Source of the DNA: an uncultured Neglectibacter sp.
GTDB lineage: Bacteria; Bacillota; Clostridia; Oscillospirales; Acutalibacteraceae
NCBI GenBank assembly: GCA_946554335.1
Contig: CAMNSA010000005.1
Span: 1 to 64,000 of the forward strand
DNA length: 64,000 bases
Direction of reading: 5' to 3'
Part shown: piece after piece, positions 58,171 to 58,350 of the stretch
How positions within the stretch are numbered: position 1 is the first letter of the stretch
Layout of the letters: each line of letters opens with the position of its first letter
Notes under the pieces: model-generated
The model's input: only the letters and a program-made list of their open reading frames with translations
Database searches by the model: none
Told to the model about the DNA's origin: nothing
Program-made: the position numbers and the translations under genes

Positions 58171-58205
58171 ATAAAAAAGAAAAGCCCACCGCCAGGTGAG
58201 CTTTT
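58171..58205 (-). terminator. Intrinsic terminator inside the nusB leader
   Basis: On the minus strand, AAAAGCTCACC (58205-58195) pairs with GGTGGGCTTTT (58190-58180), with one G-T, a four-base loop and TTTTTT following. It lies 27 bases before the nusB start, downstream of the nusB promoter, so it can only be an attenuator or a passed-through terminator. Confidence 0.75.
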
Positions 58206-58316
58206 ACAAGAAAATCACATCTAATTTTCAAGCTTCCAAGCGAAAACAGCTGCGGTGGGCACTCGTAAAACTGCTTTGACACAAGCTGAAAGCAATCCTC
58301 TCGACCGCAAGCCTTT
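58171..58316 (-). promoter_or_regulatory. Candidate attenuator/riboswitch-like leader before nusB
   Basis: The leader holds mutually exclusive pairings. The segment GCCCACCGC (minus strand, 58260-58252) can pair over nine bases with GCGGTGGGC (58192-58184), which is the 3' arm of the terminator. A further GCGGT (58308-58304) can pair with the ACCGC end of that first segment. Between them are hairpins at 58273-58293 (GCTTT/AAAGC) and near 58207-58230 (GAAAAT/ATTTTC). This is the layout of an antiterminator and anti-antiterminator. No known riboswitch class was recognised. Confidence 0.5.
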
Positions 58317-58322
58317 TCGCAT

Positions 58323-58350
58323 ATTATATCACAAGATTCTTCCAGAACAA
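58323..58350 (-). promoter_or_regulatory. Sigma-A promoter for nusB
   Basis: TTGTTC (58345-58350), 16-base spacer and perfect TATAAT (58323-58328) preceded by TGA (extended -10) on the minus strand. It lies 20 bases past the spoIIIAH stop. Predicted start near 58316. Confidence 0.8.

Follow-up and report, generated by a model that had tools for sequence, protein, structure and literature searches.

A boxA-like element and two mutually exclusive helices ahead of nusB in a family of Clostridia: a putative NusB-responsive transcription attenuator

The nusB leader in the window

How is transcription of nusB, which encodes an antitermination factor, controlled at a locus where an intrinsic terminator stands just in front of the gene? 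The locus lies in the window (the whole 64,000-nucleotide stretch of DNA that was analysed, from an uncultured Neglectibacter sp.), in which a minus-strand leader of ~170 bases between promoter and nusB lies between the presumed spoIIIA genes and nusB. A first-pass annotation had described a strong promoter just past spoIIIAH, a leader of this length and an intrinsic terminator ~27 bases before nusB, and had proposed an attenuator, with self-regulation by NusB possible and a ligand-binding RNA "equally open". Promoter, leader and terminator are all found where it had placed them. The word "strong" fits the extended -10 element and not the -35, and the promoter, good in its -10 region only, is absent from the list of a consensus promoter scan. 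The position just past spoIIIAH also stands, with the gene named by position: no NCBIfam model fitted that ORF, and the one before it matched spoIIIAG below the cut-off. The parts of the locus are the following.

58350-58345, minus: -35 element TTGTTC, a poor match
58331-58323, minus: extended -10 promoter element TGATATAAT, with +1 expected at about 58317-58316
58318-58242, minus: 5' hairpin domain, from MFE folds, containing GCGGT (58308-58304) and GCCCACCGC (58260-58252)
58241-58232, minus: antiterminator 5' strand GCUUGGAAGC, overlapping boxA, from the MFE fold and the helix in relatives
58235-58223, minus: boxA-like element AAGCUUGAAAAUU, a putative NusB-S10 (NusE) site by its likeness to the rRNA boxA of congeners, with the core UUGAAAA at 58231-58225
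58217-58210, minus: UGAUUUUC, partner of GAAAAUUA (58229-58222) in boxA when the window leader adopts its readthrough fold
58205-58180, minus: 11-pair stem of the intrinsic terminator hairpin AAAAGCUCACC-UGGC-GGUGGGCUUUU, with covariation in the stem, followed by a U-rich tract to ~58171
58144-57722, minus: nusB, the presumed regulated gene (TIGR01951, 127.4 bits, cut-off 88.35)
57816-56470, minus: ORF of xseA, exodeoxyribonuclease VII large subunit (TIGR00237, 504.4 bits, match from residue 46); the true start probably lies inside this ORF
56495-56271, minus: xseB, exodeoxyribonuclease VII small subunit (TIGR01280, 75 bits, cut-off 35)
56290-55406, minus: ispA-like farnesyl diphosphate synthase (NF045485, 339.2 bits, cut-off 275)

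The U-rich tract of the terminator ends ~27 bases before the nusB ATG (58144). When the window leader was folded without the 3' arm of the terminator, the MFE structure contained a helix of GCUU (58241-58238) and AAGC (58203-58200), the latter in the terminator 5' arm. The full leader folded modestly better than shuffled sequences (z = -1.86, with 13 of 200 shuffles equally good), and thus folding energy alone is no proof of a switch. A 221-base leader query found a single place in the window genome. The window-type 5' hairpin domain is missing or different in relatives with short leaders, and the pairing of UGAUUUUC with boxA is no general feature of relatives.

Both segments from which the first-pass annotation had built its helices lie inside the 5' hairpin. 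As it had noted, GCCCACCGC is the exact reverse complement of GCGGTGGGC in the 3' arm of the terminator, and GCGGT can pair in turn, which it does with ACCGC in the MFE fold. As a conserved switch, the pairing of GCCCACCGC with the terminator was rejected: GCCCACC is present upstream of boxA in three of 13 aligned genus leaders (the window, L003 and L008), and it does not follow the changes in the terminator arm in L003, with two mismatches, or in L008, with one. The pairing may be active in the window's own lineage. A further reason for the rejection was that the 13-mer GTGCCCACCGCAG around this segment (window 58250-58262) turned up 15 times across 9 of the 29 genus genomes, with six copies in a single genome (G003). 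The L008 leader has segments related to this 13-mer. It is perhaps a small repeat that entered some nusB leaders.

A boxA-like element and its occurrence ahead of nusB

The 16S gene of the window genome is unassembled, and the rRNA boxA pattern ACCTTGAAAAYTRAAYAA had no match in that genome. We compared the leader with the rRNA boxA of congeners, which has the form ACCUUGAAAA(U/C)U(A/G) in both 16S leaders and 16S-23S spacers. Nine of ten bases are equal between the leader AGCUUGAAAA and the congeners' ACCUUGAAAA. Where the upstream sequence suffices, the 16S leaders of the genus show GGACCUUGAAAAUUAAACAACG; most 16S-23S spacers have GUACCUUGAAAACUG(A/G)AUAAAGC. A search of the 29 genus genomes with pattern ACCTTGAAAAYTRAAYAA gave 36 places, spread over 18 genomes, and none for the reversed control. 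Two inspected places among the 36 (in G001:C105 and G010:C92) have no rRNA after them. At these, on the minus strand (L259, G001:C105:5360-5377; L260, G010:C92:14932-14949), the rRNA-type boxA ACCTTGAAAATTGAATAAGGC heads a similar stretch of ~580 bases, apparently mostly non-coding and with no Rfam match at cut-off, which is followed by an ORF. We take this ORF to resemble the PD-(D/E)XK (Rpn-type) transposase-family proteins.

Across an unguided MAFFT alignment of leaders from the genus only (A1, 13 rows), the core UUGAAAA is invariant, GC precedes it in 12 of the 13 rows, and a variable loop and then the terminator follow it. Leaders and rRNA copies share the core CUUGAAAA and a downstream (A/G)AA. 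They differ in that the rRNA copies serve antitermination and have ACC, whereas the genus leaders have AGC; immediately 5' of CUUGAAAA, the genus leaders have G where rRNA boxA has C. The boxAs of E. coli and B. subtilis have C there as well. With G in place of C, the affinity for NusB-S10 may be lower. In another genus (g101), the leaders L085 and L099 read UUGAAAACUGAAU, a sequence shared with the boxA in the spacers of genus g1. Across 15 genera, 87% keep the A at position +11 relative to the core, which the rRNA copies also have. Leaders of the later cross-genus tests were located by the core pattern TTGA[AC]AA, which by itself accounts for part of the core invariance in those tests; the support for the core obtained without this guide comes from alignment A1 and the model matches described below. 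As PMC10931766 describes for E. coli, boxA is the site of NusB-S10, which binds it in single-stranded form. By its likeness to these sites, the leader boxA would likewise be bound by NusB-S10.

All 60 relatives searched gave a NusB-like match, some to the RsmB type only, and a nusB locus was obtained from 27 of the 29 genus genomes (L002-L028). In 13 of these 27 loci, nusB is preceded by the same layout of antiterminator strand, boxA, loop and terminator. L022, a divergent GCUUUCAAA variant, is a fourteenth, and L015 was judged in part, as its contig begins 122 bases upstream. Among the nusB loci of the genus, L020 (G016) has ~170 extra, partly repetitive bases between boxA and nusB, which place boxA 258 bases from the start. 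The pattern AGCTTGAAAAN{8,38}GGCTCRCC was found in 8 of the 29 genus genomes, once in each and always just upstream of nusB (reversed control, 0).

The same four-part layout stands ahead of nusB in 15 genera of the family, Acutalibacteraceae. With a covariance model built from the genus (R1), all seven extra-genus places at E<=1e-5 in 300 family genomes lay upstream of nusB. When 398 family genomes were searched with a second model (R2, from 21 leaders), 25 places reached E<=3.3e-6, again all upstream of nusB; 11 of these are training members and 14 are not, with one of the 14 sharing its core with a training row. Above E 3.3e-6 the R2 places are mixed, as nusB is present in the locus for L129, L137 and L141 and absent from it for L126, L127, L128 and L101. 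In 394 genomes of the order, a single place outside the family had E<1e-5, at a locus without nusB. This place (L130, G563:C88:4799-4873; R2 E 9e-8) has UUGAAAACAGAA and then a terminator, ahead of a sugar isomerase/epimerase-like ORF. The family and order searches with R1 and R2 used stricter filters and scored 12-15 candidates per genome, so a missing match does not equal absence.

A survey of 108 nusB loci of the family, nearly all from different genera, found the element in ~16. A crude filter had flagged 18, of which 14 were kept by eye, and L192 and L216, missed by the filter, were added. By eye, L215 and L222 from this filter were doubtful, and L212 and L242 were chance matches. In L166 (G170), the GUGGA strand and the CCCUCCAC terminator are kept upstream of nusB with no recognisable boxA. 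The element is thus patchy, tied to nusB and, as far as sampled, an element of this family.

This distribution bears on which protein would be sensed. S10 might be sensed instead of NusB, or another boxA-binding complex might read the site; boxA is bound by NusB and S10 as a pair (PMC10931766), and PMC5725501 lists a putative boxA upstream of rpsJ in three gammaproteobacterial genera. However, all the confident places that we found sit at nusB, and we consider this reading improbable.

Terminator and antiterminator helices

The conserved antiterminator strand lies directly 5' of boxA, runs into it and pairs with the 5' arm of the terminator. Covariation was scored on A1 and on a wider unguided MAFFT alignment (A2, 21 rows). 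L022 was left out of A1, A2 and later sets, and L088, a duplicate of L087, was left out of A2. On A2 the terminator had a covariation of 0.389 compared to 0.197 in shuffled alignments, and 7 of its 10 pairs had changes on both sides. The antiterminator had 0.205 compared to 0.092; 83% of its cells were paired, and in four of its eight pairs both partners had changed. For either helix, none of 500 shuffles and no slid version reached the score. In the 3' strand of the antiterminator, A2 places the GUGGA-type leaders about two bases off. The antiterminator signal on A1 is thin: its score of 0.144 was reached by 3 of 500 shuffles, a slide of +3 gave 0.192, and its number of pairs with both-side changes was equalled by 122 of 500 shuffles.

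Across genera, the antiterminator pairing is found in unlike sequences, such as CCGGUGC/GUACCGG (L184), GCCG+GUGAA/UUCAC+CGGC (L089), GAAGGCGCA/UGCGCCUUC (L253) and GUGGAAG/CUUCCAC (L137). When one leader per genus was taken, the Fisher p over 15 genera was 1.4e-5, with 9 of the 15 at p<=0.15; 35 control leaders without boxA deviate a little too (Fisher p 0.047, 8 of 35 at p<=0.15). In a cross-genus swap test, native strands averaged -10.8 kcal/mol compared to -7.8 kcal/mol for swapped ones (42 native, 1518 swaps). This test says little for GUGGA-type leaders, many of which are interchangeable with those of other genera. L119, for which a wrong terminator was picked, was kept among the 42 and left out of the promoter, folding and per-genus tests. 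Three leaders (L118, L141 and L173) have hardly any native antiterminator. The window and L013 keep 4 of the 8 aligned pairs, and L003 keeps 6; the window duplex alone is no better than shuffles (p 0.225), and the window's own antiterminator is a weak version. A small helix beside boxA, P2 (CUGC/GCAG), was rejected, as all four of its pairs are present in 3 of the 13 A1 rows (L006, L009 and L019).

Folding without the terminator 3' arm produced the antiterminator in 37 of 41 leaders, and with the 3' arm the terminator was the MFE structure in 38 of the 41. The leader has two mutually exclusive helices with compensatory changes across genera, as expected of a terminator/antiterminator attenuator. 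Mutually exclusive helices had been predicted by the first-pass annotation, which had also proposed a covariance search upstream of nusB; the compensatory changes are seen for terminator and antiterminator, and the helices that it named are not the conserved ones.

The promoters of the leaders limit how much RNA could take part. Fifteen of 41 leaders have a -10 box ending 14 bases upstream of the core of boxA, and transcription should then start about at the antiterminator strand. A box matching TATAAT at five or six of six positions lies within 45 nt upstream of the core in 27 of the 41, with TGN in front in 24 of those; the window's own -10 is farther upstream than this range. In the shortest leaders there is no room for anything besides antiterminator strand, boxA, loop and terminator, which speaks for boxA as the sensor and against an aptamer. 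A riboswitch for a small molecule, or another RNA that binds a ligand, would have the same terminator and antiterminator architecture, and the window leader does have an extra 5' hairpin. Nevertheless, besides the promoter positions, no Rfam family matched at the gathering cut-off in the window leader or in loci L083, L085, L089 and L113, and with this result we also rejected a T-box; the best sub-cut-off match in the window leader was rnk_pseudo, at 27.4 bits compared to a gathering score of 55. We give a ligand-binding RNA almost no credence, and the view that it was equally open is not supported.

The same promoter data address whether the hairpin simply terminates transcription of the upstream genes, with TTGAAAA serving as the -35 of a nusB promoter. 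Such a TTGAAAA, -35-like and with a -10 after it, does precede nusB in several relatives without boxA (e.g., L175 and L199). In the boxA leaders, however, the best match to a -10 at the proper spacing after UUGAAAA averaged 2.85 of 6 compared to 2.99 expected, with at least 5 matches in 1 of 41, and the TATAAT-like boxes lie upstream of the core. In addition, the sequence upstream is not spoIIIAH in L013 and L096. We regard this explanation as very improbable. Among element-less loci with nusB upstream sequence, L154, L165, L175, L198, L199, L240 and L245 have the promoter-like TTGAAAA ~65-80 bases before nusB, and TTGAAAA as a -35 in such relatives is a trap for boxA searches.

Putative control by NusB-S10

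We propose that the antiterminator strand, which would be made first, pairs when free with the 5' arm of the later terminator, and that formation of this antiterminator would give readthrough into nusB-xseA-xseB-ispA. Free NusB-S10 beyond the amount taken up by rRNA boxA would bind the leader boxA and remove the antiterminator strand from pairing; the antiterminator would be weakened and the terminator would form. The net effect would be negative feedback on nusB linked to the demand of rRNA transcription. We put at roughly 0.6 the probability that the leader is a NusB-responsive transcription attenuator with negative autoregulation by NusB-S10 on boxA. Self-regulation by NusB through attenuation, which the first-pass annotation had considered possible, is supported by the conservation of the leader ahead of nusB, the exclusive helices and the boxA-like site. 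What we infer beyond this is the binding of NusB-S10, the direction of control, the nusB-xseA-xseB-ispA operon and the sensing of demand.

Blocking boxA in the fold cost a median of 5.4 kcal/mol (8.6 in the window), and at least four antiterminator pairs remained in 35 of 41 leaders, indicating that binding would weaken the antiterminator and not abolish it. This remainder would also suit the opposite sign of control at the same boxA, in which NusB-S10 loads with NusA and NusG and processive antitermination through the terminator gives positive feedback; boxA is described as an antitermination signal on rRNA and lambda (PMC12691694, PMC10931766). Yet positive control would make the conserved antiterminator strand overlapping boxA superfluous, the tested boxA control of a Nus gene, as reported for suhB in PMC5725501, is repression, and positive feedback on a Nus factor would presumably be unstable. 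We think the opposite sign rather unlikely.

The suhB system of E. coli is the nearest comparison for negative autoregulation by NusB-S10. There, according to Baniulyte et al. 2017 (PMC5725501), boxA-mediated autoregulation works by translational repression followed by Rho-dependent termination. In both systems, the gene for a Nus factor has a boxA in its 5' UTR, with feedback by a Nus complex (proposed here). Unlike suhB, the present element belongs to Clostridia, immediately precedes nusB, and combines an intrinsic terminator with an antiterminator strand that shares bases with boxA. In the window, boxA lies 89 bases from the nusB start codon with the intrinsic terminator between them, a layout that would suggest a mechanism other than the suhB type. 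The survey in PMC5725501 used the consensus GYTCTTTAANA within 50 bp of starts in 940 gammaproteobacterial genomes; its account of the results gives no boxA directly upstream of nusB and names ribH-nusB only, in six Pseudomonas, as suggestive of NusB autoregulation, with suhB the tested case and rpsJ and others putative.

Two other leaders, the rimP-leader (PMC2965389) and the rpsJ motif of Peptostreptococcaceae (PMC11109978), likewise precede genes for transcription or translation factors and probably serve autoregulation. The rimP-leader, in its authors' description, has no visible antiterminator, unlike the nusB leader, and the rpsJ motif is set apart by its description in PMC11109978, which concerns another gene and another family. 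Our searches of open-licence full texts turned up nothing recognisable as a nusB leader or as a boxA attenuator ahead of nusB. A nusB version of boxA-mediated Nus autoregulation that acts via an intrinsic attenuator looks new.

Bacteria with the leader probably use it to sense the NusB already present and to turn nusB down. We see about even odds for the more specific reading of a compact, transcription-only NusB switch, down to ~70 nt, with boxA inside the antiterminator so that binding of an antitermination factor causes termination. If true, the leader would be a minimal RNA whose boxA, of the type that keeps rRNA transcription from terminating, promotes intrinsic termination on an mRNA, and what decides the outcome of boxA binding would be testable with a 70-base template and two small proteins. 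In the bacterium itself, nusB, exonuclease VII and isoprenoid genes would be coupled to how much NusB-S10 rRNA transcription demands, and the regulation of mRNAs by boxA would be extended to a family of Clostridia.
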